From the IMG/VR virus record IMGVR_UViG_3300029319_009305, positions 43,886-107,885 of that record: 64,000 bases of DNA. One strand, written 5' to 3'. The notes under the pieces were generated by a model, which did no database searches, was not told the origin of the DNA, and saw only the letters and a list, made by a program, of their open reading frames with translations. This document shows, piece by piece, positions 265 through 54,483 of this stretch (positions are counted from its first letter, which is position 1; every line of letters starts with the position of its first letter). This stretch comes from a virus. Position numbers and translations under genes: made by a program.

Positions 265-1308
265 ATGAAGATTACAAGAAAACAATTGCGACGACTAGTT
301 GAGGCTGAAGATTTAGGCGCCGAGGTGACGTCTCATCATCAGGGTACTAGAACTGTCCTTAAAAATGTTTACAATATGTTATCTAGTGAAATTAAAGCTA
401 GTACTAAAGAGGTAAAAAGTAGTAATGAAGAGCTTAAAGCCTTGATTAATTCTTTATTATCTAAAGAAAAATCTAGAAAAGTTCGAAAAGGTAATGTCAG
501 TGAATCCATGGACAATAGAATGAAATTATCAAGCAGCCAATTAAGGCAATTAATTAGAGAGACAATCCACAAAACAATAGGAGACAAAATGAAACTCAAT
601 AGAAGACAAATCAGACGCCTGATTGAATCGACTTTAAACGAGGCGTTGCCATCAGGATTCAATGTAGGACAAGGACAAAGAAATATTGCTGCTGACTTAC
701 TCAGGCAGCTAGCTGATATATACGACAACATCGATGGTTATAGCAGTTTTGAAGAGGATTTCAACAAAGCACATGATGAAGCTAAACGCACCGGTGACGG
801 CTATGTCCGACTCACTCAGATTATTGGAATTAATTCGTATTTTTTGACAGTGTCTAGTGATTCCGAACTGAGTGATTTGCAGAGTCTAGACGTGGACAGC
901 ATTGCTGCGAATTCTCGTCGGCCTACAGGAAATCGAGATTATGATGAGCAAGTTCCTTTCTTTCGTGATCACGCAACTGACCCTGGGAAGTACACACTTG
1001 TCCGATTCATTGACGACTGTAATAGAGCAGATCTAATGACCCGATTCGGAATTCAACAAATCGATAACCCGGTTTTTGATATTAACACGGGAGATCTCGT
1101 GGATGGAGGCCACGGTGAGGCTGAGCTTCAAAAGAGCGGTAATGCTCTGAGCATAATATATCCTGGCGACGGCAGGGCCCGCGGGAAGGTGAACACTGTG
1201 AGGGCTTCTAATCCTGGACTGGGTGTTCAATCAATTAGTAGAGGTGAGAAGTTCAGAAAAATTGCCGCACAAAAATGTCGAGAGCTAGCTGACGCACTGG
1301 AGCGGTAA
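265..1308 (+). CDS. Protein with three copies of a capsid-targeting-like leader motif
   Basis: 347 residues, preceded by AAGGAG at a good distance. The motif MKxxxxQLRxLIxE occurs three times: residues 1-15 (MKITRKQLRRLVEAE), 86-100 (MKLSSSQLRQLIRET) and 109-122 (MKLNRRQIRRLIES). Each copy contains an L/I-x-E site like that cut by T4 prohead protease gp21. The third copy has its own AGGAG at 579-583, five bases before an in-frame ATG at 589, so a shorter product of 239 residues is likely as well. The C-terminal 200 residues are soluble and resemble no family I recognise. The 3' half is clearly richer in G+C (about 45-55% in sampled 60-base lines) than most of the window. Inference: internal head protein or fused cargo proteins. 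Confidence 0.6.
   Translation: MKITRKQLRRLVEAEDLGAEVTSHHQGTRTVLKNVYNMLSSEIKASTKEVKSSNEELKALINSLLSKEKSRKVRKGNVSESMDNRMKLSSSQLRQLIRETIHKTIGDKMKLNRRQIRRLIESTLNEALPSGFNVGQGQRNIAADLLRQLADIYDNIDGYSSFEEDFNKAHDEAKRTGDGYVRLTQIIGINSYFLTVSSDSELSDLQSLDVDSIAANSRRPTGNRDYDEQVPFFRDHATDPGKYTLVRFIDDCNRADLMTRFGIQQIDNPVFDINTGDLVDGGHGEAELQKSGNALSIIYPGDGRARGKVNTVRASNPGLGVQSISRGEKFRKIAAQKCRELADALER
579..591 (+). promoter_or_regulatory. Internal ribosome binding site and start codon
   Basis: AGGAG (579-583), a five-base spacer and ATG (589-591) in frame inside the 265-1308 gene, exactly where the third MKLNRRQIRRLIE motif begins. The signal is as good as the one at the annotated start, so translation from here would give a second protein carrying the leader at its own N-terminus. 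Confidence 0.5.
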
Positions 1309-1313
1309 TTTTG

Positions 1314-1988
1314 ATGAAACTTAACAGAAGACAATTAAGAAGACTTATTCGGGAAGCACTCGATGTAAGAGATCCAGCTGCTATAAAAAGATATCAAGAA
1401 TTCAAGAAAAGCCGGCAGCCACCTGAGCTTGATGATGAATTTTATGACAGCTTTAAAGACGCTGAAGGGCGAATAGACCCTAAGCAATATGACGTTGCTG
1501 ACAAGCACTATGATGCTGCATTAAAGCGTATTGCTGATCGGGAAGCACAGGAAGAAGGTTATGAAGATGCTGATGACAAGTTCAATGATGAGTGGATGAA
1601 AGAAATAGAAGCTGAGAATGCTGCACGTGATGAAAGAAATCGCCGGGCCCGGGAATTTGCCGGCATTGATAACCCAAATTTTGATGTAGAATATTATAGT
1701 AAATTTAACTTACATAAGGGTTACGCTGAAAAAGCTCTGGCAAGTGGAAACGAGAAAGAATTTGAAAGTAACTATGGGAACATGGCTCTGTATGGAAACA
1801 TGATGTATGGTCCTGAATCTAATCGTTGGAAAGAAGAAGAGGGAGTTCCAGAGTTAACGCAAGCTTATGAAAAAGTTGTTGCGGGTAGTACGATAGATCA
1901 ACTTATTGATAGGGGTTTAGACGCAGACTTTTTTAATTATAAAAAATCGCCCACGCTTAAGGCACTTGGTTTATTTGATGATAAGTAG
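1314..1988 (+). CDS. Charged protein with N-terminal capsid-targeting-like leader
   Basis: 224 residues. I chose ATG 1314 over the TTG three bases earlier because GGAGCGG lies upstream at a normal distance and the ATG gives exactly the shared leader MKLNRRQLRRLIREAL. The leader contains I-R-E followed by A, matching the T4 gp21 prohead-protease rule (L/I-x-E before a small residue). The remainder is extremely rich in Asp, Glu, Lys and Arg with predicted long helices and no membrane segment. No family recognised. It follows the 265-1308 gene by five bases, so the two are co-transcribed and probably share a destination in the virion (inference). Confidence 0.6.
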   Translation: MKLNRRQLRRLIREALDVRDPAAIKRYQEFKKSRQPPELDDEFYDSFKDAEGRIDPKQYDVADKHYDAALKRIADREAQEEGYEDADDKFNDEWMKEIEAENAARDERNRRAREFAGIDNPNFDVEYYSKFNLHKGYAEKALASGNEKEFESNYGNMALYGNMMYGPESNRWKEEEGVPELTQAYEKVVAGSTIDQLIDRGLDADFFNYKKSPTLKALGLFDDK

Positions 1989-2006
1989 TTAGAGTTTGTT
2001 TTGGCG

Positions 2007-2066
2007 GAGGAGGACCGTTAGGTCCTACTCAGCAATCGTAGAGTAAAAGTCGCGCCGGCGAGGCCG
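2007..2066. other. Two GC-rich hairpins in an intergenic gap
   Basis: The 151-bp gap holds a stem AGGACC (2011-2016), loop GTTA, stem GGTCCT (2021-2026), extendable by GAG/CTC after one mismatch. A second small hairpin is formed by CGGC (2056-2059), loop GAG, GCCG (2063-2066). Neither is followed at once by a T run, so a simple intrinsic terminator is not obvious. They could be part of a structured RNA, a processing site, or a weak terminator of the upstream pair of genes. Confidence 0.35.
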
Positions 2067-2139
2067 TGATATATTTAAATTTTCTCTCCTTTAATTTTTG
2101 GATTTTACTTTTTAATCGGATAATTATGGGGAGGTTCTT

Positions 2140-2499
2140 ATGCTTGAATTTTTCAATATTAAGATGATATACGCAATTTGTTTTTTCGTGGCAGGTCATT
2201 GTTTAGGTTGGTACGCTCATAATTTACAATTTGTTAATGAATTTTGGAAAGACAAGGTTGTTCTTCCCACTATTATTTTTGGTATACCTTGTTTGCTCGC
2301 TTTTTGGTGGGGAACTAAGTTTGCAATGGAGGCCTCTGGTGAGCTCTGGACAGCTCGTTTTGTTGCAGCCGTGTTTTCATACCTAACGTTTCCAATAATG
2401 ACCTGGTGGTACCTTGGTGAATCCATGTTTACACTTAAGACAATATCTTGTGTGTTTCTTGCATTTTGTATTTTATTGATTCAAATATTTGTTAAATAG
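2140..2499 (+). CDS. Four-helix membrane protein, SMR/DMT-like
   Basis: 119 residues with four hydrophobic segments (about 8-25, 40-57, 70-88 and 97-117), preceded by GGGGAGG at a proper distance. The length, the four spans and the segment around ITWW-Y-LGES resemble small multidrug-resistance/DMT-type transporters, but the essential Glu of EmrE in helix 1 is not evident. Function is therefore open: a small transporter-like or holin-like membrane protein. It stands alone between two GC-rich hairpins and the lipoprotein pair. Confidence 0.5.
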   Translation: MLEFFNIKMIYAICFFVAGHCLGWYAHNLQFVNEFWKDKVVLPTIIFGIPCLLAFWWGTKFAMEASGELWTARFVAAVFSYLTFPIMTWWYLGESMFTLKTISCVFLAFCILLIQIFVK

Positions 2500-2572
2500 T
2501 TTCAAAATTCTTGTAAACATTTATTTAAACGCTGTATTATTTTGCAACCTAATAAAAATAGAGGAGGTAAAT

Positions 2573-2740
2573 ATGCGTTATGCATTGTTAGTTATGCTTC
2601 TTGCATGTAGTGATGAAGTAGAAGATACTGCTGCAGTAGAAGAAGAACAAGAAGCTCAGGTAGAAGATACTTCTGTAGAGGAAGAAGTCGAAGGTGAAGA
2701 AGAAGAATCAGCTGAGGGTGAATCTGAAGGAGAAGAATAA
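2573..2740 (+). CDS. Very small acidic lipoprotein
   Basis: 55 residues starting MRYALLVMLLAC. ATG 2573 follows GAGGAGG and is preferred to the long in-frame extension upstream. A minimal signal peptide ends in a lipobox (LLAC), so Cys-12 would be lipidated after export. The mature part is almost only Glu, Asp, Ser, Val and Ala and should be disordered. The gene is followed one base later by a second lipoprotein of the same design. Possible roles known for phage lipoproteins include spanin partners and superinfection exclusion; nothing here decides between them. Confidence 0.6.
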   Translation: MRYALLVMLLACSDEVEDTAAVEEEQEAQVEDTSVEEEVEGEEEESAEGESEGEE

Positions 2741-2741
2741 G

Positions 2742-2984
2742 ATGTTTTTATTTTTAATGATTCTTGCGTGTGAAAGTGAGACAACAACTGTTGAGACAAC
2801 AGAGACGAGTACTGATAATGTTCAGACGACTACTGAAGTTGACGTTGCTACAAAAAAGGTATCAGCAGAAACTAGTCAAGTTGTTGAATCTCAAAATACC
2901 CCACAAGACAATACGGTAATAACGGTTACTACAACTGAAATTCCCATGGATGAGTATACTGAAGAAGAAAAATCTAGTGATTAA
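2742..2984 (+). CDS. Small Thr-rich lipoprotein
   Basis: 80 residues starting MFLFLMILACES. ATG 2742 follows AAGGAG inside the end of the preceding gene, so translation is coupled. The ten-residue export signal ends in a lipobox (ILAC). The mature part is rich in Thr, Val, Glu and Ser and probably unstructured. It is followed by a strong terminator. Together with the gene before it, it forms a two-gene lipoprotein cassette of unknown function. Confidence 0.6.
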   Translation: MFLFLMILACESETTTVETTETSTDNVQTTTEVDVATKKVSAETSQVVESQNTPQDNTVITVTTTEIPMDEYTEEEKSSD

Positions 2985-3013
2985 CTTACTTTAAACTACA
3001 CATTCAAAAATTT

Positions 3014-3043
3014 AACGCCGGCTAATGCCGGCGTTTTTATTTT
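3014..3043 (+). terminator. Intrinsic terminator
   Basis: Perfect nine-base stem AACGCCGGC (3014-3022), loop TAAT, GCCGGCGTT (3027-3035), followed by a T-rich run. It closes the lipoprotein pair. Confidence 0.85.
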
Positions 3044-3091
3044 AAAAAATTAAAATTACTTGATAATTATAAGATAAAGGTGGAGATAAAC

Positions 3092-3487
3092 ATGAAGCTC
3101 ACAAAAAGACAACTTAAAACTTTGATAGAAGGTATGTTTGATGACATGTCACTTCAAACAACTGGTCATGGTGAAGAACCTGGTTACGGTGACCCAAATC
3201 TTAGTCCGCACTTAGGTTTGTCTCCTGATTTAGAAGAACCTGGCGTGCATCCCTCAAGACAAATTGGTACCGGTCAAATGGATGAAGAGGGTATGAAATA
3301 TTGGGGAAATTACATACTCAAAGAGCTTAATATGGGACCTTTGGATTTGGACAAATTACTTAATAAAGTTGCAGGTGATGATTCAGACGAAAGCATGCGT
3401 GACTCAATTTTGTCTGATCTGATGATTGTGATATCTAAATCAGATCAAATAGAGTTAGGTGAAGATCTTAACATAATAGCAAAGTAG
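3092..3487 (+). CDS. Small protein with capsid-targeting-like leader
   Basis: 131 residues. ATG 3092 lies just after AAAGGTGGAG and yields the shared leader MKLTKRQLKTLIEGMF, which has L-I-E before Gly and so fits the T4 prohead-protease rule. Residues 17-65 are Gly/Pro-rich and look flexible; the C-terminal 60 residues look helical (TLxILSDLMIVIS-like pattern). No family recognised. Terminators on both sides make it a single-gene unit. Inference: a packaged internal head protein. Confidence 0.55.
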   Translation: MKLTKRQLKTLIEGMFDDMSLQTTGHGEEPGYGDPNLSPHLGLSPDLEEPGVHPSRQIGTGQMDEEGMKYWGNYILKELNMGPLDLDKLLNKVAGDDSDESMRDSILSDLMIVISKSDQIELGEDLNIIAK

Positions 3488-4395: not shown

Positions 4396-4641
4396 ATGCA
4401 AAAAAATATAAAAATTGGTGATTTAGTTGAATTTATAGAATACTATGTTGCGTCAGGAATTCAAGGAATGAATCTTACAAAAACCACACCTAAGTACAAT
4501 TGTCTTGGTATAGTTTTAAAAACAAAAAATACATCAGTTTCAAGTTCTAAACCTAAGATTAAAACTTTTTGTGTAATGATGCCTGGACGTCATATTGAGT
4601 GGGTTGGTGAGGCAATGATATCAACTATAGCTTCTTTATGA
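4396..4641 (+). CDS. Small protein, unknown function
   Basis: 81 residues; begins GDLVEF in an SH3-like beta pattern and continues with strand-like segments (CLGIVL, KTFCVMM, HIEWVGE). Such short barrels are common among phage accessory proteins, but no specific family is recognised. No clear ribosome binding site; its start overlaps the alternative start of the divergent hydroxylase gene. Confidence 0.45.
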   Translation: MQKNIKIGDLVEFIEYYVASGIQGMNLTKTTPKYNCLGIVLKTKNTSVSSSKPKIKTFCVMMPGRHIEWVGEAMISTIASL

Positions 4642-4692
4642 TTTTTTGATTTAAATTAATTCTTTATTATACGTATTAATAGGGGGTTAATC

Positions 4693-4947
4693 ATGAATTT
4701 ACTTTTAGCATTAAGTATTTTTGTATTTGTGGTTGTTGTTTTTTCAACAATTGTTTTATTGAAAAGTTGGATGAATTTTGTAGATAAACAAAATAAAAGA
4801 AAATTTAAATCAAAAAAGCGTGAAGAATTTGAGATAATAAACTACGTCAGCGATTTTTCAAGGAAAAAAAATCTAAAAGAAACAATTATTGATGTTGAGT
4901 GTGAAATCATTAATGAAAATACTGATATTGTTAGATATTTACAATAA
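4693..4947 (+). CDS. Single-span membrane protein, unknown function
   Basis: 84 residues after AGGGGGT. Residues 2-26 form one strongly hydrophobic helix, followed by a basic stretch and a charged cytoplasmic tail. No recognised family. It lies 15 bp before the 250-residue protein and is probably in the same transcript. Confidence 0.5.
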   Translation: MNLLLALSIFVFVVVVFSTIVLLKSWMNFVDKQNKRKFKSKKREEFEIINYVSDFSRKKNLKETIIDVECEIINENTDIVRYLQ

Positions 4948-4962
4948 AACGGAAATATTTTT

Positions 4963-5715
4963 ATGAGCACTGATGACTTAGAAAGACTTCTAATTAGAAA
5001 TGAAATTAGACAGTTTTTAATAGATATTGAATTCTTAAAAGAAGATATCAGGAGCAATCCAGAATTATATTTGTCTGAAAATGTAAGTTTTTTTGATGCT
5101 TTGGGAGCGATTGGGGGAAATTTTGCAGGTGATATATCTGCAGGTGCTTTTAGTGCGTTAACTGAAACGATTATAGACTTGATATTTGAAGTATTAGGAA
5201 TTACTAGTGACTCACTGCTTGAAGCTTTCTTTATTGAATTATTTAAAGAATTTATAGAGAACGTCTTAATCGCCAAGCCAGGTAATATTGCTTTATATAT
5301 GGATGATAAAAAAGGTTGCTCTACCCTTGCTGATGACATTACAATGGTAATGGGAAAATCAGGAGGAGACATAATGGTAAAAGTTGTAGTTAACTATATT
5401 AAATCAGAAGAATTTGAAAGAAGGACCAAAGAAAACGAAGGTGGTGAAGGTTCAATAGTTGGAGAATTAATGGGCCAATTATCAACAACAGTATTGAAGG
5501 CGTTATCTGACAATATGATTGTTGGAGCAATTGGAAAAATAGTCAAAGAAGCTTTCGAAAAAGATATGGTTGAGCAGCTTCAACCGTTTGTTAGAAGAGC
5601 TGTGTGCCAGTTAAACTTAACTGAAGAAATTCCTAAGATGTTTGGATTTGGTGCGAGTCCAGACTCAGATTCTCCAAAACTACCTCAGCCTGCCATGACA
5701 AACGAAGAGGATTGA
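4963..5715 (+). CDS. Unknown protein with amphipathic helices
   Basis: 250 residues. A charged N-terminal helix is followed by a Gly/Ala-rich stretch (about 45-70) and long amphipathic helices with moderately hydrophobic patches (about 65-110, 160-215), ending in a flexible Ser/Pro tail. The pattern could suit a membrane-inserting or virion-internal protein, but no family is recognised. The stop codon is followed three bases later by the start of the DUF2272-like gene, so the two are coupled. Confidence 0.5.
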   Translation: MSTDDLERLLIRNEIRQFLIDIEFLKEDIRSNPELYLSENVSFFDALGAIGGNFAGDISAGAFSALTETIIDLIFEVLGITSDSLLEAFFIELFKEFIENVLIAKPGNIALYMDDKKGCSTLADDITMVMGKSGGDIMVKVVVNYIKSEEFERRTKENEGGEGSIVGELMGQLSTTVLKALSDNMIVGAIGKIVKEAFEKDMVEQLQPFVRRAVCQLNLTEEIPKMFGFGASPDSDSPKLPQPAMTNEED

Positions 5716-5718
5716 TTG

Positions 5719-6552
5719 ATGTACATTGTTGAAGAAAAAAAGCTTAGAAGTATTATAAGAAAATTATTGGAAAAAAGGCAAAGGACCTTAACTGGATTAA
5801 TGAAGTCTGATGCTGATGCAACTAAATTAGCACCGATTCAATTTGATTTTGATTCAATATCTAACAGTAGTGTTGTTACGATAGCAAAAAGTGAATCAGA
5901 CTTTTGGGAAAATGGTGAACTAAAAGAGACAGACGAAAAAGCTTATGATCGATTGAATTCTTATTGGTCAGAAGGGGCTGGGTGGTCTGAATCACAGTGG
6001 GAACCAGGAAAGACACCGTGGAGTGCAGCATTTATTTCTTATTGTATGAAAAAGTCAGGTGAAAGTTTTTATGATGCTGCGGCACATTATGTTTATGCAA
6101 AAAAAGCTTTGGATAATCGTAAAAAATTAGATGAAGATCCTAATAGCCTTTCGGGGACTGAAGACTATGTTTTATTTCTAAAGGGCGAGGTAGAGCCGGT
6201 TCCGGGCGATGTTTTATTTTATGTGAGAAGCGGTAACATCAAATCTTGGATCGCTGGTGGCGGTGGTGAGATTGCTTCACATTGTGACATATTTATAGGT
6301 GGCGGTTTAGCTATTGGTGGTAACTTAGGTAATTCTTGCAAAGAGACTAAGGCGTTTGGAAAGCATGAGGCAATCATCAAAAAAGTTAAAGTTGGAAAAG
6401 CTACTGAAGGTGAAGAAGGAGATGATAGCATTACAGGATTAGGAACAGCTGGCGATATCGCTCTTGCCACACCTTTGGCCGGAGGTGTCGTTGCTTATAA
6501 AGCCGCCGAAGCTGGCAAAGAATTCTTCACGCCTGATAAAAAGAAGGATTAG
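5719..6552 (+). CDS. DUF2272-like protein (NlpC/P60-related fold)
   Basis: 277 residues. ATG 5719 is preferred to TTG 5716, with AGAGG upstream. Residues about 93-205 carry the pattern PWSAAFISYCMKKSG, then an AAHxxY element, PxPGDVLFY and a SHCDIF segment, as in DUF2272 proteins, which are distant relatives of NlpC/P60 cell-wall peptidases. In the peptidases the equivalent motif is PWCAAF; here Ser replaces the nucleophile Cys, so catalysis by the usual mechanism is doubtful. The N-terminus (MYIVEEKKLRSIIRKLLE) is a weaker version of the leader seen on nearby proteins. A role in the virion or in lysis is inference. Confidence 0.55.
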   Translation: MYIVEEKKLRSIIRKLLEKRQRTLTGLMKSDADATKLAPIQFDFDSISNSSVVTIAKSESDFWENGELKETDEKAYDRLNSYWSEGAGWSESQWEPGKTPWSAAFISYCMKKSGESFYDAAAHYVYAKKALDNRKKLDEDPNSLSGTEDYVLFLKGEVEPVPGDVLFYVRSGNIKSWIAGGGGEIASHCDIFIGGGLAIGGNLGNSCKETKAFGKHEAIIKKVKVGKATEGEEGDDSITGLGTAGDIALATPLAGGVVAYKAAEAGKEFFTPDKKKD

Positions 6553-8085: not shown

Positions 8086-9255
8086 ATGTCAATATTTAAA
8101 GAACATAAATCTTCAGCTGATAGATCTGCAACTGATAGAAGGAGACATAAAGAAAAAATTGAGAAAGCAATAAAAGAAGGAATTCATGATATCGTAGCAG
8201 AAGAAAGTATAATTGGACAAAACGGTAAAAAAAGAATAAAAATACCAGTTAGGGGAATTAAAGAATACCAATTCATATATGGTAAAAACAATAAAAAAGT
8301 TGGGTCAGCTCAAGGTAAGGACATTTCAAAAGGTCAAAAAATAGGTAAGGGTAAGAAAAAATCTGCTCAAGGACAACCAGACAAACCTGGTAATACGGCT
8401 GGAGAAGAATTTTATGAAGTTGATATAACACTCGATGAATTAGCAAAGTATTTATTTGATGATTTGAATTTACCTGAGTTAGAAAAGAAATCATTTCCCA
8501 ACATATTTTCTGAAACTGTTAAGCGGAAAGGTTATAGAAAGGAAGGAATTAGACCTAGACTTTCAAAAAAAGAAACTTTAAAGAGAAAGATTAGAAGAAA
8601 AAAAGCTGCAATATTAAACGGTACTTATGAAAATGAAAGTGGTGAAAGGTTTCCATTTCACAAAGATGATCTCAAGTATAAACACATAGAAGTGACACAG
8701 AAAAATGTTACAAATGCAACCATATTTTTTATAATGGATACATCTGGATCGATGAGTAAAAGTAAAAAATTCAAAGCTAGATCCTTTTTCTTTCTCCTAT
8801 ATCAGTTTATTAGATATCGTTATGATAAGACTGAAATTGTTTTTATATCTCATACAACCGAAGCTAAAGAAACTAATGAAAAAGAATTTTTTGAAAGAGG
8901 GTCTAGTGGTGGAACTTACTTAAGCTCTGGGTTGAGCAAAGCTTTAGAAATTATTGATAAGCGATATCCATCTAATAGTTGGAACATATACGCTTTCCAT
9001 TGTTCAGATGGAGATAATTGGAGTGAAGATAACGACAAGGCAATTAATTTAACAATTAAATTAAGAGACTTAAGTCAATTGTATAGTTATATAGAGATAA
9101 CTGACGGTAGAAAGGGTTCTGCCGGTTGGGGAGAACCAATGTCCTCGATTTATAAGAATTTGCAAAATAAATTTTTTAAGATTGTTGAGATAGACAATAA
9201 AGAAGATATATGGCCACAATTTAGAAAACTTTTCGGGAATTATAAAAATGAGTGA
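8086..9255 (+). CDS. yeaH: DUF444 protein (YeaH/YhbH family), VWA domain
   Basis: 389 residues, the usual length for this family (B. subtilis YhbH is of similar size). An N-terminal basic region precedes a C-terminal von Willebrand factor A domain starting near residue 210 with the metal-ion site MDTSGSM (217-223). In bacteria the gene neighbours the kinase gene prkA/yeaG and often spoVR/ycgB, and all three belong to stress or stationary-phase regulons; the protein's biochemical role is not settled. Here it opens an operon with the same partners, overlapping the SpoVR gene by eight bases. Only a weak Shine-Dalgarno (GAGAG) is seen. A phage-borne copy is unexpected. Confidence 0.85.
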   Translation: MSIFKEHKSSADRSATDRRRHKEKIEKAIKEGIHDIVAEESIIGQNGKKRIKIPVRGIKEYQFIYGKNNKKVGSAQGKDISKGQKIGKGKKKSAQGQPDKPGNTAGEEFYEVDITLDELAKYLFDDLNLPELEKKSFPNIFSETVKRKGYRKEGIRPRLSKKETLKRKIRRKKAAILNGTYENESGERFPFHKDDLKYKHIEVTQKNVTNATIFFIMDTSGSMSKSKKFKARSFFFLLYQFIRYRYDKTEIVFISHTTEAKETNEKEFFERGSSGGTYLSSGLSKALEIIDKRYPSNSWNIYAFHCSDGDNWSEDNDKAINLTIKLRDLSQLYSYIEITDGRKGSAGWGEPMSSIYKNLQNKFFKIVEIDNKEDIWPQFRKLFGNYKNE

Positions 9256-10594
9256 CGACAACTGGAATTTTGACGATTTAAAACGCTGGGATGATATTAT
9301 TTGTCAAAAAGCAGAATCTTTCGGTTTGGACTGGCATCCAATTAATTATGAAATATGTGATTATTTCGAAATGATTGGACACATGTCGTATCACGGCATG
9401 CCTAGCCATTACAATCACTGGAGTTATGGAAAATCTTTTGAAGTTACTCACCAGAGATATAATGCAGGTATGTCAGGTCTACCTTATGAGTTGATAATTA
9501 ATTCTAATCCTTCAATTGCTTATCTTATGAGGGAGAATCCGTTATATTTGCAAATTTTAATAATGGCACATTGTGTAGGACACAGTGACTTTTTTAAAAA
9601 TAATAGAACTTTTCGAAAAACCGGACCTGAAACAATTGTTTCTAAAATGAGAAATGCAAAAAGACGAATATTTGAATATTCAGAAGATCAAATGATAGGA
9701 AAGGACAAAGTTGAGAATTTTTTAGACGCTTTACATTCTGTAAGATTTCAAACAGAAAGATATGAATTACCTAGACTGACACCTAGAGAAAAGCAAAAGA
9801 ATTTCATAGATAAAATAAATAATTCAAAATTGTTAAAAAATGCTGATCCTGACAAAAGAAAAAGATATGAAAGATTGGTGGGGAAAAAATGGTTAATTGG
9901 AAACGATTATGACTTATTAGGATTCTTTTTAGACTATGGTGATTTTGATGACTGGCAGTTAGATTTGATCAATATAGTTAGGGATGAATCACACTATTTT
10001 ATACCTCAAATAAAAACAAAAATACTAAATGAGGGTTGGGCATCATTTTGGCATTATAAGATTTTACATGAATTAGAATTGCCTCAAAAATATCACATAC
10101 CTTTTTTGAAAATGCACAATGCAGTAGTCAGACCTCACATAGGTGGGGTCAATCCTTATCATTTGGGTTTTTATTTGTTTCAAAAGATAGAAAGGGAAAT
10201 GGGATTAGAAGAATGCTTTTTCATTAGAGAAGTTCATGATGATGCATCAGCATTAAGAGCTTACTTAGACGAAGAAGATATGGTAGAGTTAAACTTTTTC
10301 GAGCACCAAAGAGATCAAAAAACAGGAGATACATTTATAACAGAAGTATCAGATAAGGATGGTTGGAAAAAAGTAAAACAAGAATTAATAAGAAATACAG
10401 GAGTAGCTAGTATTCCGCTAATATATGTGTCTGAAGTTAATAAAAAATTAAATTTGTTAGAATTAAAACACGAACACGATGGAAGAGACTTAGAGCTAAA
10501 CTATGCTGAGGAAGTCGTTAAAAACATTAAACATATATGGGACGGTGAAGTAAAACTATTTACTGTAATTGAAGAAGAAATATGGGAAATTTAA
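9248..10594 (+). CDS. spoVR: SpoVR/YcgB family protein
   Basis: 448 residues. Hallmarks of the family are visible: WHPINYEICDY near the N-terminus, HMSYHGMPSHYNHWSYGKSF around 50-70, an ENP...LIMAHCVGHSDFF stretch and the later NEGWASFWHYKIL segment. SpoVR was named for spore cortex formation in Bacillus, but in Gram-negative bacteria YcgB belongs to the stationary-phase response and usually travels with PrkA and DUF444. It starts inside the end of the DUF444 gene and ends 12 bp before prkA, so the three are one translation-coupled unit. Confidence 0.85.
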   Translation: MSDDNWNFDDLKRWDDIICQKAESFGLDWHPINYEICDYFEMIGHMSYHGMPSHYNHWSYGKSFEVTHQRYNAGMSGLPYELIINSNPSIAYLMRENPLYLQILIMAHCVGHSDFFKNNRTFRKTGPETIVSKMRNAKRRIFEYSEDQMIGKDKVENFLDALHSVRFQTERYELPRLTPREKQKNFIDKINNSKLLKNADPDKRKRYERLVGKKWLIGNDYDLLGFFLDYGDFDDWQLDLINIVRDESHYFIPQIKTKILNEGWASFWHYKILHELELPQKYHIPFLKMHNAVVRPHIGGVNPYHLGFYLFQKIEREMGLEECFFIREVHDDASALRAYLDEEDMVELNFFEHQRDQKTGDTFITEVSDKDGWKKVKQELIRNTGVASIPLIYVSEVNKKLNLLELKHEHDGRDLELNYAEEVVKNIKHIWDGEVKLFTVIEEEIWEI

Positions 10595-10606
10595 AAGGGA
10601 GAACCA

Positions 10607-12541
10607 ATGTCACAAAAAAAATTCCTTGAACTTATATCAAAACAAAGACGTAAGAACAAAAAAGAAAAATTCAAAGGTACGTTTCTTGAATACTTAGAGG
10701 TTGTACAAGATAAACCAACAACAATAAAATTGGCTCATAAGCGATTGTATGATGTAATCAATAATCAAGGTATGAAAACAGTAGATGTTGGTGACGAAGA
10801 TTATAGGCCATATTTTAACGGTGAAAAACTTAGAAAATTTCAATATTTTGAAAAAGAATTTTTTGGGATGGAAACTGTTATTCATAAATTAATGCAGTAT
10901 TTAAAATCAGCTGCTTTAAAAGGTGAGGAAAGTAGACAAGTTTTACTTTTAATGGGCCCAGTAGGCGCAGGTAAGTCTGCACTTATAGAACATGTTAAGC
11001 AGTCATTAGAAATGACTGATCGAATCTATCATTTAGATGGGTGTCCCATAAGAGAAGAACCTCTTCATTTAATACCTAGAAGTTTAAGACCTCAATTTGA
11101 AGAAATGCTAGGTATACACATTGAGGGAGATTTATGTCCTGTTTGCAGGCATAGACTCATGGAAGAGTTTAATGGAGAATATGAAAACTTTCCTGTTACA
11201 CAAAGCAGCTTTTCTCAAAGGGGAAGAAGAGGAATTGCTGTTGTTCCTCCCATGGACGCTAATTCTCAAGATGTTTCTGTTTTAATTGGTACAGAGGATA
11301 TATCTAAGCTTGATCTGTATCCAGAAGATGATCCAAGAGTTTTATCTTTAAATGGTGCTTTTAATGTAGGAAATAGAGGGATTGTAGAATTTGTAGAAGT
11401 TTTTAAGAATGAAATTGAATTTCTTCACACAATGTTAACAGCTACCCAGGAAAAGCGTGTACCTTCACCTGGAAAAAATGATATGCTTTATTTTGACGGT
11501 GTGTTGTTAACACACTGTAACGAATCAGAATGGAACAGATTCAAGGGTGAGCATACAAATGAGGCAATTTTAGATAGGGTTTTGAAAATTAACGTGCCGT
11601 ATGTTTTAGAGTTAGATCAGGAAATGAAAATTTATGAAAAAATGATTAATAGGTCAGACTTTAAATCAGCACATATCGCACCACATACTTTGAAAATTGC
11701 TTCAATGTTTTCTGTTATGAGTAGGTTTATTCCATCCTCAAAATGTGATTTATTGACAAAGATGAAAATCTACAATGGCGAATCAATAATTGAAAAAGGT
11801 AGGGTTAAAAAAATAGATATTAAAGATTTAAGAGCTGAAGCGCGTAACGAGGGAATGGAAGGCATATCCACAAGATTTATTACAAAATCTCTGGATAGGG
11901 CTTTAAGCGATTCAGATAAGAATATGATTACACCAATTAATGCTATCGATAGTTTAGTTAAGCAAGTAAAAGAACAAATAATCGATGACGATGCAAGAGA
12001 ACGCTACTTAGAAATCTTGCAAGATATAATTCGTGAAGAATATTTAAGAATTCTTGAAACAGAAATTGCAAAAGCTTTCATAGCAGCTTACGAGGAACAA
12101 GCACAGAGTTTATTTGATTCATACTTAGACAATGCTGAATGTTATACTACTAGAACAAAAGTTAAGGATAGAATTACAAGAGAAGAAAGAGAACCTGATG
12201 AAAAATTTATGAAGTCAATTGAAGAGATGATTGGTGTTGTAGGTTCTGCTAGGGATGGATTTAGAAACGATGTAACAGCTTATATGTTTGCAAAAATGAG
12301 AAAAGGGGAAAAGGTTGATTATTCAAGCTACGGACCGCTTAAAGAAGCAATCGAGCAATTTTTAATTACATCAGTTAAAGACATATCTAGAATTGTTACG
12401 AAGTCAAAAAGTAGAGATGACAAACAAAAAAGAAAGTATTCGAATATGATTAATACGCTTGTCGAAGATTATGGTTATACACCTGATAGTGCTGAGGAAA
12501 TATTGACTTACGCAGCTAATAATCTTTGGAGAGACAGTTAG
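10607..12541 (+). CDS. prkA: PrkA/YeaG serine protein kinase-like AAA+ protein
   Basis: 644 residues, close to the 630-645 of bacterial PrkA. The AAA+ core has Walker A GPVGAGKS at 117-124 and a CPVC pair (177-180) as in PrkA. The following segments (FSQRGRRGIAVVPP; FVEVFKNEIEFLHTMLTATQE; AILDRVLKINVPY) match the conserved PrkA core, and a C-terminal kinase-like domain follows. Bacterial members are reported as Ser/Thr kinases or AAA+ proteases/unfoldases of the starvation response. GGGAG lies before the ATG. All main motifs appear intact, so activity is plausible. Confidence 0.88.
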   Translation: MSQKKFLELISKQRRKNKKEKFKGTFLEYLEVVQDKPTTIKLAHKRLYDVINNQGMKTVDVGDEDYRPYFNGEKLRKFQYFEKEFFGMETVIHKLMQYLKSAALKGEESRQVLLLMGPVGAGKSALIEHVKQSLEMTDRIYHLDGCPIREEPLHLIPRSLRPQFEEMLGIHIEGDLCPVCRHRLMEEFNGEYENFPVTQSSFSQRGRRGIAVVPPMDANSQDVSVLIGTEDISKLDLYPEDDPRVLSLNGAFNVGNRGIVEFVEVFKNEIEFLHTMLTATQEKRVPSPGKNDMLYFDGVLLTHCNESEWNRFKGEHTNEAILDRVLKINVPYVLELDQEMKIYEKMINRSDFKSAHIAPHTLKIASMFSVMSRFIPSSKCDLLTKMKIYNGESIIEKGRVKKIDIKDLRAEARNEGMEGISTRFITKSLDRALSDSDKNMITPINAIDSLVKQVKEQIIDDDARERYLEILQDIIREEYLRILETEIAKAFIAAYEEQAQSLFDSYLDNAECYTTRTKVKDRITREEREPDEKFMKSIEEMIGVVGSARDGFRNDVTAYMFAKMRKGEKVDYSSYGPLKEAIEQFLITSVKDISRIVTKSKSRDDKQKRKYSNMINTLVEDYGYTPDSAEEILTYAANNLWRDS

Positions 12542-23122: not shown

Positions 23123-23827
23123 ATGAGAAAAATATTTATTAAAGAAAAATTGAAAGAAATGAACGTCCAATTGGAAGACATTGTAATGGGAGATTTTGAT
23201 GTCATTGGTGAATATACGGCAAAAAAGCCTAGATCACCTGATTCTGACTATTACAAAAAGTACGGATGCTTTTTTAGGCCCAACTATGAAAGAGGAATAT
23301 TGATGTATTACCTTATCAGGAAAAATGAGGTAAATTCTGTTTTAGAGATTGGTTTCGGAAGAGGGTATTCTGCGTTTTGCATGGCAAAAGCAATGTGCGA
23401 TCATGGGATAGATGGTAAGATTACAACTGTTGACCCTAGTTTAGATAAAAATTTTCTGGAACAGCTTACGAGAGTTTTTCCTAAAATATGGTTTGACAAA
23501 ATTGAATTTATGGGTTGCACATCTGATACGTATTTTGAAAAAAATCCGGATAAAAAATTTGATTTAATATACATAGACGGAGATCATACTTACAACGCAG
23601 TCAAAAAAGATTGGGAAAACTCTAGAGAAAGGTACAATAAATTTCTACTATTTGACGATTATCATTTACCTACAAAGCAACAACCAGAAATAGAATGCTC
23701 TAAAGTAATTGATAAGATTGATGATAAAAGCAAAGAACTTATAATCTTAGATAGAAGAATGTTCTATGATGATCTTTTAAGAAAAGACGAAGATATTGAT
23801 TATGGTCAGGTTTTGTTAACGAAATAG
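23123..23827 (+). CDS. Class I methyltransferase, CmcI/Methyltransf_24-like
   Basis: 234 residues. VLEIGFGRGYSAFCMAKAM is motif I, ITTVDPS the acidic loop, and IYIDGDHTYNAVKKDWE with LLFDDYH the metal-binding signature of the Methyltransf_24 family. Members act on sugar hydroxyls and antibiotic sugars. Same operon as the gene before it. Confidence 0.7.
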   Translation: MRKIFIKEKLKEMNVQLEDIVMGDFDVIGEYTAKKPRSPDSDYYKKYGCFFRPNYERGILMYYLIRKNEVNSVLEIGFGRGYSAFCMAKAMCDHGIDGKITTVDPSLDKNFLEQLTRVFPKIWFDKIEFMGCTSDTYFEKNPDKKFDLIYIDGDHTYNAVKKDWENSRERYNKFLLFDDYHLPTKQQPEIECSKVIDKIDDKSKELIILDRRMFYDDLLRKDEDIDYGQVLLTK

Positions 23828-23841
23828 ATGAGGGTTGCGAA

Positions 23842-24771
23842 GTGAAATTGTATATAAACAGATCAGTTATGAATAAACCATGGGGTGGTGGTGGACATTT
23901 TGTAACTAATTTTACTAACTATATGAAAAGAAGGGGTCACGATGTTGTATTTAATTTTGTAAAAGATATTGATGTTATGTTACTTATAGACCCGAGACCT
24001 AGTGAATTAGGTTCGTCAATCAATGACGTCTTGCAGTATAAACATTATTTCCCTAAAACCAAAATAGTTCATAGGATTAATGAGTGTGATAAGAGAAAAA
24101 ACACAAACTTTATTGACGACTTAATAGTAAGATCAAATGAATATGCTGATGAGACAATATTTATAAGTCAATGGTTGAAAGACTATTTTTATGCTAAAGG
24201 TATCAATCGAGATAGTCATGTCATATACAACGGATGTAATACAGAACATTTTAAGCCTAGTGATAAATTATTTGATAATAAAAATGTAAAATTAGTGACT
24301 CATCATTGGTCTGACAATTGGCTGAAAGGTTTTGATATATATACAAAAATAGATGAGTACATAACAAACAATAATTGTAATTTTGAATTTACTTATGTCG
24401 GGCGCTACAACAAGAATTACAGTCCTAAATCAACAAGCATAGTAGAGCCACTTTATGGTGAAAGCTTAGGAGAGGAATTAAGAAATCATGACATATATGT
24501 AACAGCTTCTAGATTTGAACCCTGCGGTATGCATCATATTGAAGGGGCTGCTTCTGGACTTCCTGTATTGTATCATATTGATGGCGGGGGAATAAATGGA
24601 TTATGCTCTTATCATGGAGAATCCTTCAGTAATTTTGATGAATTTCTAGAAAAATTAAAACTATTGATAGACAATTATCAGAAGTTCAAGGACAAGATTG
24701 ATTATAAGCGTCTGTGTGCAGAAAAATGTAGCGAAATGTATTGTAAAGTATTAGAAGAAATTATATTATAG
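23842..24771 (+). CDS. Family 4 glycosyltransferase
   Basis: 309 residues from GTG. The N-terminus includes MNKPWGGGGHFVTNF; the C-terminal donor domain has TASRFEPCGMHHIEGAASGL. It is followed by the nucleotidyltransferase/heptose kinase pair. Confidence 0.78.
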   Translation: MKLYINRSVMNKPWGGGGHFVTNFTNYMKRRGHDVVFNFVKDIDVMLLIDPRPSELGSSINDVLQYKHYFPKTKIVHRINECDKRKNTNFIDDLIVRSNEYADETIFISQWLKDYFYAKGINRDSHVIYNGCNTEHFKPSDKLFDNKNVKLVTHHWSDNWLKGFDIYTKIDEYITNNNCNFEFTYVGRYNKNYSPKSTSIVEPLYGESLGEELRNHDIYVTASRFEPCGMHHIEGAASGLPVLYHIDGGGINGLCSYHGESFSNFDEFLEKLKLLIDNYQKFKDKIDYKRLCAEKCSEMYCKVLEEIIL

Positions 24772-43404: not shown

Positions 43405-43858
43405 GGATGAGTGGCCATTAAGAAAAATGTTAAAAATTGGTTTAGTCGCAGGTAATTTTGACGTAATCCATCCCGGGTATGTAAAAATGTTTCAAGATGC
43501 AAAAGAAAATGCGTGCAATTACTTGATTGTAGCTCTTCAAAGTGATCCAACCATCGATAGACCAGAAAAAAGCAAACCAGTCCAGACAATAGCTGAAAGA
43601 GAATATATTCTTTCATCAATAAGATACGTTGATGAAATACTTCACTATGATACAGAAATTGAATTACTTAATATTTTAAAGAACCATGATTACGACATAA
43701 GAATATTAGGATCTGATTACGATATTCCTGGAAAGAAATATACCGGTTCTGATCTTAACAAGCCTATTTATTTTCATAAAAGAGATCATGATTATTCAGC
43801 AACTGATCTCAAAACAAGAATAGCATTGCAAGTAATGAAGGAAAGAGATGGCAGATAG
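43394..43858 (+). CDS. Cytidylyltransferase-like protein (TagD/RfaE2 fold) with altered HxGH motif
   Basis: 154 residues. GLVAGNFDVIHPGYVKMFQDA aligns with the nucleotidyltransferase start, but the second His of HxGH is Tyr (HPGY). SSIRYVDEIL, RILGSDYDIPGKKYTG and DYSATDLKTRI match glycerol-3-phosphate or RfaE2-like enzymes, with a GYSTT-like ending. The substitution may reduce or change activity. Overlaps both neighbours. Confidence 0.7.
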   Translation: MHTKDEWPLRKMLKIGLVAGNFDVIHPGYVKMFQDAKENACNYLIVALQSDPTIDRPEKSKPVQTIAEREYILSSIRYVDEILHYDTEIELLNILKNHDYDIRILGSDYDIPGKKYTGSDLNKPIYFHKRDHDYSATDLKTRIALQVMKERDGR

Positions 43859-44108
43859 AAATGATATGTATCCAGATAATGTGGGTGGTGTCGTCACAAT
43901 AAAAGGAAAAAAATATTCATTTTATGTTGACAGAGAATGCATTCTCTGTTCAGTGTGTACTGACGCTGCACCCAATAATTTTTGTATCAGTGATGATGAA
44001 GATCATGATATATGCTATAAACAGCCAGAAAATGAAAATGAGTTAGAAGAATGCTTGGAGGCAATGGAGAATTGCCCTGTAGAAGCAATTGGCGATGATG
44101 GCTTATAA
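43848..44108 (+). CDS. Ferredoxin, single 4Fe-4S type
   Basis: 86 residues. CILCSVC (Cys 31, 34, 37) plus Cys-76 in NCPVEAI is the binding set of one [4Fe-4S] cluster; extra Cys at 46 and nearby may be structural. An electron carrier for host or phage enzymes. Candidates in the window are the radical SAM proteins and the di-iron membrane enzyme at 3889. It starts inside the end of the cytidylyltransferase gene, at the end of the glycan locus. Confidence 0.82.
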   Translation: MADRNDMYPDNVGGVVTIKGKKYSFYVDRECILCSVCTDAAPNNFCISDDEDHDICYKQPENENELEECLEAMENCPVEAIGDDGL

Positions 44109-50560: not shown

Positions 50561-51049
50561 ATGCCAACTTATTCTTTTAAAAGCTCTGGATTTTTAAATA
50601 GAAATACTGACGAGCGTGTCAACGCTGTTACTTTAAAGCCAATTGGGATCAAAACACCACTTGAATTTTCTAGAAAAAACCAAGATAGTTTATTCTCAAT
50701 GCATTATAAAGTTATAGATCAGATTCATGACAATCTTAGAAATCTCTTGCTAACAAACCCAGGCGAAAGATTAGGGCGACATGATTACGGCGCTGGATTA
50801 AGAGAAATGACGATGGAAATGATATCAAGTGAAAATTACGAGCACGCTGTGATGATGCGAATAAAAAACACAGTTGATATATACATGCCTTTCATTGATT
50901 TAGATAGTTTTGGAATTGACGATATTGTTTCGACTCCGTACGAATTGCAGGGTGGTATGAGTAAAGTTACAGTGACTATTGCTTACAATGTACCTAAACT
51001 ATCAATTGTTAACAAAAGATTACAATTAATTTTATATGTCGCAGGATAA
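50561..51049 (+). CDS. Baseplate wedge protein gp25-like (GPW/gp25)
   Basis: 162 residues, GAGG upstream. NLLLTNPGERLGRHDYGAGL and LREMTMEMISSENYEHAV followed by RIKNTVDIYMP is the conserved gp25/W core that nucleates sheath assembly. Three bases before the gp6-like gene. Confidence 0.82.
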   Translation: MPTYSFKSSGFLNRNTDERVNAVTLKPIGIKTPLEFSRKNQDSLFSMHYKVIDQIHDNLRNLLLTNPGERLGRHDYGAGLREMTMEMISSENYEHAVMMRIKNTVDIYMPFIDLDSFGIDDIVSTPYELQGGMSKVTVTIAYNVPKLSIVNKRLQLILYVAG

Positions 51050-51052
51050 ATT

Positions 51053-52906
51053 ATGCCTAAAAATATTAAGAAAGAAGCAAAATTAATTAGAGACACAAGT
51101 TACTTAAATAAAGACTTCGGAGGTTTCAGAAAAGACCTTTTAAATTATGCAAAAACACACTTTTCCGAACAGATCCGCGATTTTTCAGAGGTGTCAGTAG
51201 GGGGTATGCTTGTTGATATGGCTGCTTATGTAGGTGATGTTATGTCCTTCTACCTCGATCATCAGTATTCAGAATTAAATCTTGAAACAGCAATTGAGGA
51301 ACCAAACGTCCAGAGGTTGATTAGGCAGTCAGGTATCACAATAACAGGAGCTAGTCCTGCAATAGTTTCTGCAACTATTTATATTAGAGTTGATTCCGCC
51401 TTTGATATTAAGACGCAGTCATACATACCCAATCATCGGCAGCTACCTATTTTAAAAGCAGGTACAAAAGTAGCTTCAGTCGACGGAACTGTTTTTGAGT
51501 TAACCCAAGACTATGATTTTGCAGAGAAAAATTTAACTAATGAATTGATAAGTTCAGTTTCCACAGGTAATACTGATAATAATGGGACAGTTTTAGATTA
51601 TATAGTTTATAGAGACTGTATTTTTACTAGTGCAATTTCTAAAACAGAAACATTTAATATTTCTAATGAATTTATTCCTTTTAGAACAATTGATTTAGCA
51701 GAATCTGATATTAGCGAAATTGTATCTGTTTATGATAGTGAAAACAATCATTATTATGAAGTAAAGTCTCTAACACATGACGTTGTTTATAGAAGGTTCA
51801 ATAATGTTAAAAGTGATAGTGACTTAGTTCATGATAAATTAGGGATTATTCCTGCTCCTAGAAGATTCACAAAAGAATTTTCTTTGCTAGATGGAAAGAC
51901 AACAATTAGGTTTGGTTCAGGAAGAGCAGATACCTATGAGGATGATATAGTACCAGATCCATCAGATCATGCTTTGCCCTTGTACGGAAATAAAAGAACT
52001 TTCAGTAGATTTTCCATAGATCCTAACAAGATGTTAGAAACTAGAACATTAGGCGTATCGCCTATCAATACAACACTAACAGTAACTTATAGACACGGAG
52101 GCGGTTTTGGGCACAACGCTTCTCCCGGGCAAATTATTAATATTGTAAGCTTAATCACAAAATTTAATTCAGCGATAAGTGCGACAAAAGTAAGAAACAT
52201 AAGAAATAGTATAGAAGTTTATAACGAAAGTAGAGCTTCTGGTGGAACTGATAGACCTACTCTCAATGAAATGAGAGCAGTAGCATTAAATTACCAAGGA
52301 TCGCAAGACAGAATTGTTACAAAGCAAGACTTGCTTACTAGAGTTTACACTATGCCTTCAAATTTTGGACGGGTTTACAGAGTCGCAGTTAGAAAAAATA
52401 ATTTTTCACAAAATACTGCACTGGTATCTATATTGACTAAGAACGAATTAGGTTATTTAGATTATGCAACTGATACTTTAAAAAAGAACATTGCCAAATA
52501 TATTAATGAATACAGACTTATTGGGGATTCAATTGATATACTTGATGGAACAATATTGAATTATGGTATACGATTTTCAATAACAGTTGATAATAGGTAT
52601 AATGATAGCAATGTGTTAGTAAAAGTGATAAATAAAATTAAAAAATTTACTAGAACAGAAAATTTTCAAATTGACCAACCTATTAATTTAACTGACATAT
52701 CGCTATTAATTGTATCAACTGATGGAGTCAATACATTGAATAGTTTAGAAGTAATAGAAAGAAAAGGGAGCGTCAATGATAGGCTTTATTCATCTAATTC
52801 ATTTAACATCAAGGAATCAATAGTCAAAGGTATTCTATATCCAGTTCCTGGTGGCATGTTTGAATTAAAATATCCTAATGATGATATTCAAGGAAGGGCA
52901 ATATAA
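51053..52906 (+). CDS. Baseplate wedge protein gp6-like (baseplate J family)
   Basis: 617 residues (T4 gp6 is 660). SEVSVGGMLVDMAAYVGDVM, then SFYLDHQYSELNLETAIEEPNVQRL and RQSGI are conserved in gp6/J proteins. The C-terminal part has the typical ATDTLKKNIAKYINEYRLIGD and DNRYN-type segments. It forms the wedge ring around the hub with gp25. Confidence 0.82.
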   Translation: MPKNIKKEAKLIRDTSYLNKDFGGFRKDLLNYAKTHFSEQIRDFSEVSVGGMLVDMAAYVGDVMSFYLDHQYSELNLETAIEEPNVQRLIRQSGITITGASPAIVSATIYIRVDSAFDIKTQSYIPNHRQLPILKAGTKVASVDGTVFELTQDYDFAEKNLTNELISSVSTGNTDNNGTVLDYIVYRDCIFTSAISKTETFNISNEFIPFRTIDLAESDISEIVSVYDSENNHYYEVKSLTHDVVYRRFNNVKSDSDLVHDKLGIIPAPRRFTKEFSLLDGKTTIRFGSGRADTYEDDIVPDPSDHALPLYGNKRTFSRFSIDPNKMLETRTLGVSPINTTLTVTYRHGGGFGHNASPGQIINIVSLITKFNSAISATKVRNIRNSIEVYNESRASGGTDRPTLNEMRAVALNYQGSQDRIVTKQDLLTRVYTMPSNFGRVYRVAVRKNNFSQNTALVSILTKNELGYLDYATDTLKKNIAKYINEYRLIGDSIDILDGTILNYGIRFSITVDNRYNDSNVLVKVINKIKKFTRTENFQIDQPINLTDISLLIVSTDGVNTLNSLEVIERKGSVNDRLYSSNSFNIKESIVKGILYPVPGGMFELKYPNDDIQGRAI

Positions 52907-54462: not shown

Positions 54463-54483
54463 GCAACAAGGATTAAATGAACT

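Follow-up and report, generated by a model that had tools for sequence, protein, structure and literature searches.

A Basic N-Terminal Leader on Unrelated Proteins of Uncultured T4-Type Phages Is a Probable Cleavable Capsid-Targeting Propeptide

At least nine reading frames of a 108-kb virus record begin with the same basic, amphipathic N-terminal leader, which has the consensus M-K-[IL]-T-[KR]-R-Q-L-R-R-[IL]-I-x-E followed by A, S, or E, ends at L/I-x-E, and carries a net charge of about +4. Hundreds more leaders occur in IMG/VR contigs of the same phage group, with 1 to 30 copies per record. The leader is very probably a cleavable capsid-targeting propeptide of the T4 kind; packaging, cleavage, and delivery of the proteins that bear it are inferred. 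Its sequence, its short and long forms, its scale, and the presence of several copies per protein would be new with respect to the T4 propeptide.

The window is the whole 64,000-nucleotide stretch of DNA that was analyzed; the record extends 43.9 kb upstream of it, and that part is not visible in the window. Five strong leader copies lie at positions 265, 520, 589, 1314, and 3092, exactly where the first-pass annotation had placed them, and its statement that L/I-x-E falls at leader residue 13 or 14 and is followed by A, S, G, or T is true of all five. Three copies, at residues 1, 86, and 109, are found in a single 347-aa open reading frame at 265-1308 (plus strand, as are all features of the window given here). 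The first, MKITRKQLRRLVE followed by A (265-309; 26.5 bits), has its predicted cut after the Glu at 301-303; the second, MKLSSSQLRQLIRE followed by T (520-564; 28.0 bits), after the Glu at 559-561; and the third, MKLNRRQIRRLIE followed by S (589-633; 16.0 bits), after the Glu at 625-627. An AGGAG five bases 5′ of the ATG at 589 makes an internal start there possible, unlike at 520, where no AGGAG precedes the start. A 224-aa protein at 1314-1988 carries MKLNRRQLRRLIRE followed by A at 1314-1358 (35.7 bits; predicted cut after the Glu at 1353-1355), and no relative of its body was found in IMG/VR. A 131-aa protein at 3092-3487 begins with MKLTKRQLKTLIE followed by G (19.7 bits; predicted cut after the Glu at 3128-3130). 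The protein at 5719-6552, which contains a DUF2272 domain (PF10030, 3.6e-09), had been listed as bearing a weak relative of the leader; its start, MYIVEEKKLRSIIRKLLEK, scores no more than 0 bits against a matrix derived from leaders of the relatives, and this assignment is doubtful and unsupported.

The remaining record was searched for the leader, as had been suggested earlier, and further copies were found upstream of the window at record coordinates 100, 6112, 7276, and 8285, and also at 10340, 42994, and 43668, with weaker copies at about 7887, 10044, and 16223. The C-terminal part of a leader protein begun upstream (MKIKITKIQLRNIIRESI...; record coordinates 43668-44096, read across the left edge of the window) occupies positions 1-211. 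The leader matrix identified nine starts above 9 bits in the real record, whereas no start exceeded 0 bits in any of 20 Markov resamples of it, and the reversed leader pattern, used as a control, had 0 matches in 26 records. An internal hairpin upstream of 265 was not significant. The baseplate and tail genes at 50561-59603 (gp25-like, gp6-like wedge, and others) place the record among the T4-type myoviruses. No gp21, gp23, or core genes are present in the window's own record (G000), because the record is a fragment; its link to the head therefore rests on kinship. Of its 165 ORFs, 42 have matches in the leader-bearing relative G004 and 39 in G001.

Among 362 N-terminal cases, residue 14 is Glu in 95% and residue 12 is Ile, Val, or Leu in about 98%, counts for which the cases were chosen by fixing residues 1 to 9 only. 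The conserved basic, amphipathic stretch comprises leader residues 2 to 12, conservation stops at residue 15, and the predicted cut motif in the relatives is I/L-[KR]-E followed by A, S, or E. In 16 sampled exceptions with a displaced Glu, L/I-x-E was kept in 10/10 with the Glu at residue 13 and in 6/6 with a later Glu. Of 234 strict leader hits, 165 begin at the first residue of the protein and another 56 lie within the first 31 residues. The short form of the leader has 14 residues, with E14 followed by Ala, Ser, or Thr, and the long form has about 22, with EE at 14-15 and L-x-E at about 20-22. An L-x-E at 20-22 was present in 90/159 leaders with Glu at residue 15, compared to 4/167 with a small residue there (Fisher, 8e-31). 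This value treats leader copies as independent, which they are not, since leaders descend from one another, and the correlation is thus inflated. A longer amphipathic helix could contribute to the correlation between residues 15 and 22. The residue after E14 is Glu in 44% of the N-terminal cases, whereas T4 sites have a small residue at this position. About half of the leaders have a small residue after the leader Glu and most others have a second L-x-E; 25 of 410 leader proteins have Glu after E14 and no clear second site. When short and long versions of homologous cargo were compared, the predicted cuts had zero offset in 6 of 45 pairs (e.g., IIKE/SVTD and FLRE/TVAD, the slash marking the predicted cut). 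The majority of the pairs were out of register at the cuts, chiefly because they are multi-module proteins.

A gp21-type prohead protease and a gp23-type major capsid protein occur together in 18 of 30 leader-bearing records, including 16/16 of those longer than 108 kb; the 12 records without gp21 and gp23 are all 108 kb or shorter. The first-pass annotation had proposed comparing the cut sites of the protease and capsid with the leader. Both genes were found in relatives, where the capsid rule is the leader rule: L-[RK]-E followed by A, S, or Q is present in 21/21 capsid proteins at the position homologous to E65-A66 of T4 gp23, as judged by alignment and not by proteomics. The N-termini encoded by two small head-core genes adjacent to gp21 match the leader design, with a MAKITKRMLKGIVKECLVEILSEG-like start in 18/18 gp21 cassettes and a KLTPxLLKKLVLQE-like start in 17/18. 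The ranking of the core proteins is only supportive, since the leader matrix, serving as its own null, is contaminated by further leader variants. The protease, capsid site, and core N-termini of the relatives support the initial reading of the leader as a variant of the T4 signal cut after L/I-x-E, although packaging, cleavage, and delivery remain inferred. One alternative is that the leader attaches to the core or portal of the prohead, carries proteins into the head, and stays uncut, with the Glu serving as a salt bridge or helix cap, and a binding helix alone would also account for the conserved residues 2 to 12. We consider this very unlikely, as conservation ends right after L/I-x-E, the Glu moves only where that motif is retained, the capsid cut site of the clade has the same local motif, R/K at P2 included, and the short and long versions of some cargo are in register at the predicted cuts.

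In total, 410 leader proteins were collected, which form about 250 unrelated sequence clusters once the leader is removed. Pfam matches among 120 representatives were limited to 6 families (lysozyme, HNH, M78, and DUF5824 among them), compared to 55 families, mostly enzymes, for 94 size-matched neighbor proteins, and a library of defense proteins gave one marginal match to 120 cargo proteins. One leader protein matched a PHROGs set for tail lysozyme, transglycosylase, and baseplate hub. Follow-up scans did not single it out, and it is taken as lysozyme-domain cargo; a leader on a tail protein would count against packaging. The bodies are acidic (median pI of 4.7), unlike the T4 internal proteins, which are basic. 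The T4-style late promoter TATAAATA was found upstream of 0/50 leader genes and 3/749 others; it is nearly absent ahead of all genes, and these phages therefore do not use it, so that the promoter says nothing about whether leader genes are expressed late with the head genes. The carriers are a large set of uncultured bacteriophages that are probably marine. The leader letters had no match in a literature search, and a tblastn search of annotated phages with the 20- to 22-residue leader, a short query subject to the low-complexity filter, returned no match, a negative that carries no weight for these reasons. A signal unrelated to the head, such as docking to the host membrane or nucleoid or a helix that binds a host protein in the infected cell, would be compatible with the charge and amphipathicity of the leader and with the unknown function of most cargo. 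It is nevertheless highly improbable: the same N-terminal design is found on head-core proteins, leader genes directly follow the capsid gene in three genomes (G004, G006, and G022), almost no housekeeping or replication enzyme bears the leader, and a search of 257 Gb of bacterial genomes gave only a few matches to the strict pattern, phage-like contigs among them.

Common ancestry alone, in which a single gene family expanded and its bodies diverged until no longer recognizable, would explain the homologous clusters among some bodies but is barely credible when 189/410 bodies match no other, bodies carry lysozyme, HNH, peptidase, and Zn-ribbon domains, both leader types are found on one body family, copies without Met occur inside proteins, and near-identity across 14 residues with none after them indicates a module rather than drift. 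Ordinary paralogy was rejected because the bodies are diverse, leaders are swapped, and copies occur internally.

As a cleavable propeptide, the leader would bind the prohead core late in infection, the small proteins of the core bearing matching N-termini, and this binding would enclose the cargo in the prohead. A gp21-type protease would then cut after the Glu and remove the leader. Proteins with several leaders, such as the 265-1308 product and at least 19 comparable proteins in relatives, would be split by this protease into separate pieces, and the mature cargo would remain with the packaged DNA and enter the next host cell. The absence of proteomic or experimental data, which leaves sequence evidence only, counts against the propeptide reading, as do the acidic bodies, the leader genes without TATAAATA, and the Glu after E14. 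We give an even chance to a broader proposal: that in a group of uncultured T4-type phages, many with jumbo genomes, one exchangeable tag loads up to 30 or so fast-changing virion cargo proteins per phage, that short and long forms can yield the same mature end, that cleavage of multi-leader polyproteins inside the head releases several delivered proteins, and that the tag derives from or coevolves with the N termini of the head-core proteins that it binds. The function of most proteins of large uncultured phages is unknown. Should the leader mark head cargo, hundreds of proteins that enter the cell as infection begins could be predicted from a 14-residue pattern. The exact ends of their mature forms would be predicted as well, which permits a direct test by virome proteomics. 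The T4 internal-protein principle would then apply to an open-ended cargo system rather than to a few proteins. The cargo would be a rich source of proteins for host takeover and counterdefense, and the leader would suggest a targeting tag for studies of protein delivery.

The closest known counterpart is the capsid-targeting sequence (CTS) of the T4 internal proteins, with its L/I-X-E cleavage rule (PMC9026906). Like the leader, the CTS of IPI to IPIII is N-terminal, short, and amphipathic, starts with MK, ends at L/I-x-E before A, and is found on proteins with unrelated mature parts alongside a gp21-type protease (PMC9026906). IPII and IPIII start with MKTYQEFIAEA, and comparison of the leader MKITKRQLRRIIKE with the CTS MKTYQEFIAE leaves only the MK start and the I/L-x-E end in common. 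The leader has 14 or about 22 residues rather than 10, is strongly basic, is repeated within single proteins, and reaches 30 copies per record, compared to three internal proteins in T4; a loose leader pattern had no match in T4 and the six other T4-related phages tested. The DarB protein of phage P1 likewise has a short N-terminal head-targeting signal, of <30 residues, that takes this defense-countering protein, and also a reporter, into the head (PMC9024508). The authors of that study found no consensus shared by the Dar proteins (PMC9024508), whereas one leader consensus serves hundreds of proteins. In PhiKZ and SPN3US, proteins packaged with the DNA carry N-terminal propeptides cut after x-x-E by a gp21-related protease (PMC10052503; PMC9026906), an arrangement similar to that of the leader; however, the motif is S/A-X-E or A-X-E, the propeptides are mostly long (111 to 254 residues in SPN3US), and there is no common short leader. 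The prohead core proteins of T4-like phages have a similar start, with I/L/F-x-E-A near the N termini of T4 gp22, gp67, and gp68 and leader-like core proteins in the relatives, but they are scaffold parts, whereas the leader proteins are variable cargo. Because core proteins and cargo have the same design, the leader can also be used to study the recognition of the prohead core by targeting peptides.

The first-pass annotation reported five strong copies of a basic amphipathic leader in the window, and all five were found at their reported positions when the window and the 43.9 kb upstream of it were read. The window covers bases 43,886 to 107,885 of an IMG/VR virus record, and the entire record (107,885 bases) was scored with a position matrix made from the leaders of relatives, and nine starts exceeded 9 bits: window positions 265, 520, 589, 1314, and 3092, of which 520 and 589 are internal to the protein starting at 265, and record positions 100, 6112, 7276, and 8285. 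Extending the search to the rest of the record, as had been proposed, recovered several further copies upstream of the window. With the same matrix, no start scored above 0 bits in any of 20 Markov resamples of the record. A weak copy had also been claimed at 5719, but its matrix score was not above zero; the protein contains a DUF2272 domain. Several ORFs that adjoin leader genes (window 2489 to 2984; record 1287 to 2816 and 23194 to 24456) have acidic bodies and begin like lipoproteins (LLLACG, MLLACSD, or LTACSD); they are possibly exclusion lipoproteins.

As judged from sequence alone, the leaders form a family that ends in L/I-x-E and occurs in two forms. The consensus of 234 strict matches is M-K-I-T-[KR]-R-Q-L-R-R-I-I-x-E, with 165/234 lying at residue 1 of their protein and conservation ceasing at residue 15. 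In a second tally, only residues 1 to 9 were fixed so that the site residues were not forced; among 362 N-terminal cases, residue 14 was E in 95%, residue 12 was I, V, or L in about 98%, residue 13 varied (mostly K or R), and residue 15 was mostly E, A, or S. The Glu was displaced in 16 exceptions (to residue 13 in 10 and later in 6), all of which, by reading, kept an L/I-x-E ending at the Glu. An L-x-E at residues 20 to 22 was present in only 4 of the 167 cases with a small residue 15 and in 90 of the 159 with Glu there (Fisher p = 8e-31, inflated by the shared descent of leaders). In the Glu-15 leaders, conservation falls just past residue 22, a position often followed by G, S, or A. In the T4-type sites examined, the Glu is followed by a small residue. 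The most economical interpretation is therefore that leaders in which Glu at residue 15 spoils the first site have a second, putative one farther along. Some homologous cargo with short and long leaders could be aligned at the predicted cuts, marked here by a slash (IIKE/SVTDT, FLRE/TVADM, and LLRE/SMTDM in one set; RLIRE/SCGDA, YKMRE/GCGDA, and LIKE/ACGDV in another). The offset was exactly zero in 6/45 short/long pairs, and most other pairs were multi-module or differed near their ends. Other proteins of these phages (ORFs of records G001, G004, and G022) carry a further leader variant, MKNLRQYIRRIISEA.

A strict back-translated pattern matched 82 stretches in IMG/VR, many on contigs of 100 to 293 kb with several copies. 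The same kind of pattern matched 8 stretches in bacterial and archaeal genomes totaling 257 billion bases, on a few MAG contigs, and a large gp23-type capsid ORF was present in two of those leader-bearing MAGs. A looser pattern gave 1 to 30 copies per leader-bearing record (e.g., 30 in G011, 23 in G016, 19 in G007, 18 in G017, and 17 each in G001 and G004), 0 in T4, 0 in four other named T4-related phages, and 0 in two huge uncultured phages; the reversed-pattern control had 0 matches in every record. Leader clusters lie on NHDW01000006.1 and PBIO01000025.1 (stretches L198 to L205), from a Methylococcaceae MAG and a Halobacteriovorax MAG. Since these MAGs hold gp23-type capsid genes and PBIO01000025.1, at 101,404 bases, is equal in length to an IMG/VR record, the two contigs probably represent phage genomes that were assigned to bacterial bins.

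The families of the T4-type prohead protease gp21 (PF03420) and major capsid protein gp23 (PF07068) co-occur in the same 18/30 leader-bearing records, and every record above 108 kb (16/16) is among these. They were not found in the remaining 12, all of 108 kb or less, among them the window's own record, which ends before the head genes. By these family assignments, the leader is confined to phages in which gp21 and gp23 are both present in every record of sufficient length. Upon alignment with T4 gp23, the position of the known T4 cut (E65/A66) was L-[RK]-E/[ASQ] in 21/21 capsid proteins, a site predicted without proteomics. The leader motif, I/L-[KR]-E/[A/S/E], agrees with it at P3, P2, and P1, so the comparison with protease and capsid cut sites suggested in the first-pass annotation came out in favor of a common rule. 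The T4 gp21 rule is L/I-X-E, and the ten N-terminal residues of IPIII are enough for targeting and are then removed (PMC9026906). The N terminus of T4 IPII and IPIII is MKTYQEFIAEA. By sequence, the leader does not belong to the T4 capsid targeting sequences; rather, it is a new variant of the same principle, with packaging and cutting inferred. Capsid-protein genes occur as a tandem pair in some relatives (L123, L125, and L128, in G001, G017, and G014).

Besides agreeing with the predicted capsid cut rule, the leader resembles head-core proteins. The interval from gp21 to the scaffold encodes a protein whose N terminus resembles MAKITKRMLKGIVKECLVEILSEG in 18/18 relatives and a second, resembling KLTPALLKKLVLQEKRRIRET, in 17/18. 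Both share the leader spacing of K-I/L-T, L-K, I/L-V/I, and E, and the former also has a second L-x-E/G. Both types scored among the leader-like N termini of their genomes (the median other ORF scored about -22); the null included further leader variants, so this ranking is supportive only. The capsid gene of G004 is followed directly by five leader genes, and leader genes lie just after the capsid gene in G022 and G006. Binding of leader proteins to the prohead core, their packaging, cutting, and delivery are inferred, in the absence of proteomics. In a 484-kb uncultured phage (L195, LR756508.1; 14787 to 19477), five or six proteins directly after a gp23-type capsid gene start with MRLKEILLEN, MRLKNVLLKE, MKLKGILKEA, and similar sequences; in several of them, a YRG stretch that by eye resembles an ADP-ribosyltransferase comes next. 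These starts may be a second targeting leader, independent of the first, carried by toxin-like proteins.

With the leader removed, 410 proteins fell into about 250 sequence clusters, 189 of them single. The leader proteins are small, with a median length of 120 residues, and acidic: their median pI is 4.7, versus 5.5 to 5.6 for the remaining proteins of those genomes. Only 6 Pfam families (SLT transglycosylase, phage lysozyme, two HNH models, M78 peptidase, and DUF5824) were matched by 120 representatives, whereas 94 size-matched leaderless neighbors matched 55, most of them enzymes of metabolism and replication. Thus, proteins with the leader are a distinct group about which little is known, and no housekeeping genes with a leader were found. 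At least 19/410 proteins contain a second in-frame leader (20 were listed by script with more than one leader-like match, one being an overlapping match), with up to four leaders per protein; inner copies usually lack Met, and some inner modules match stand-alone leader proteins from elsewhere. The product of window 265 to 1308 is of this class, with copies at residues 1, 86, and 109. If the targeting model holds, cutting would divide it into separate pieces, and an internal start at 589 is a further possibility for this gene.

The record has 165 ORFs of 60 codons or more, 42 of which match ORFs of G004 and 39 ORFs of G001, and it has a long collinear stretch in common with G001. Upstream leader proteins (e.g., record 7276, 7872, and 8285) have relatives with 62 to 86% identity; the loci holding these had been chosen for carrying leaders. 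Matches to relatives include PrkA (71% identity over 641 of 644 residues), which forms a trio with DUF444 (YeaH-like) and SpoVR at window 8086 to 12541, in an order kept in G001. About 30 kb of sugar genes (window 16770 to 47527), comprising glycosyltransferases and epimerases with a CMP-sugar cytidylyltransferase at 37232 and NeuB at 38818, are partly common to G001. An ATP-type PEP carboxykinase (PF01293, 1.9e-168) is encoded at record 4397 to 5857 (L002), and leader phage G011 has a copy of it with 52% identity. More than 10 small paralogue-like ORFs of about 60 to 90 residues, often in tandem, have the pattern KxGDLV...GIVL...W.DG (e.g., record 5854, 11665, 11858, 12445, 13637, 27965, 28158, 28327, and 28541 and window 4396).
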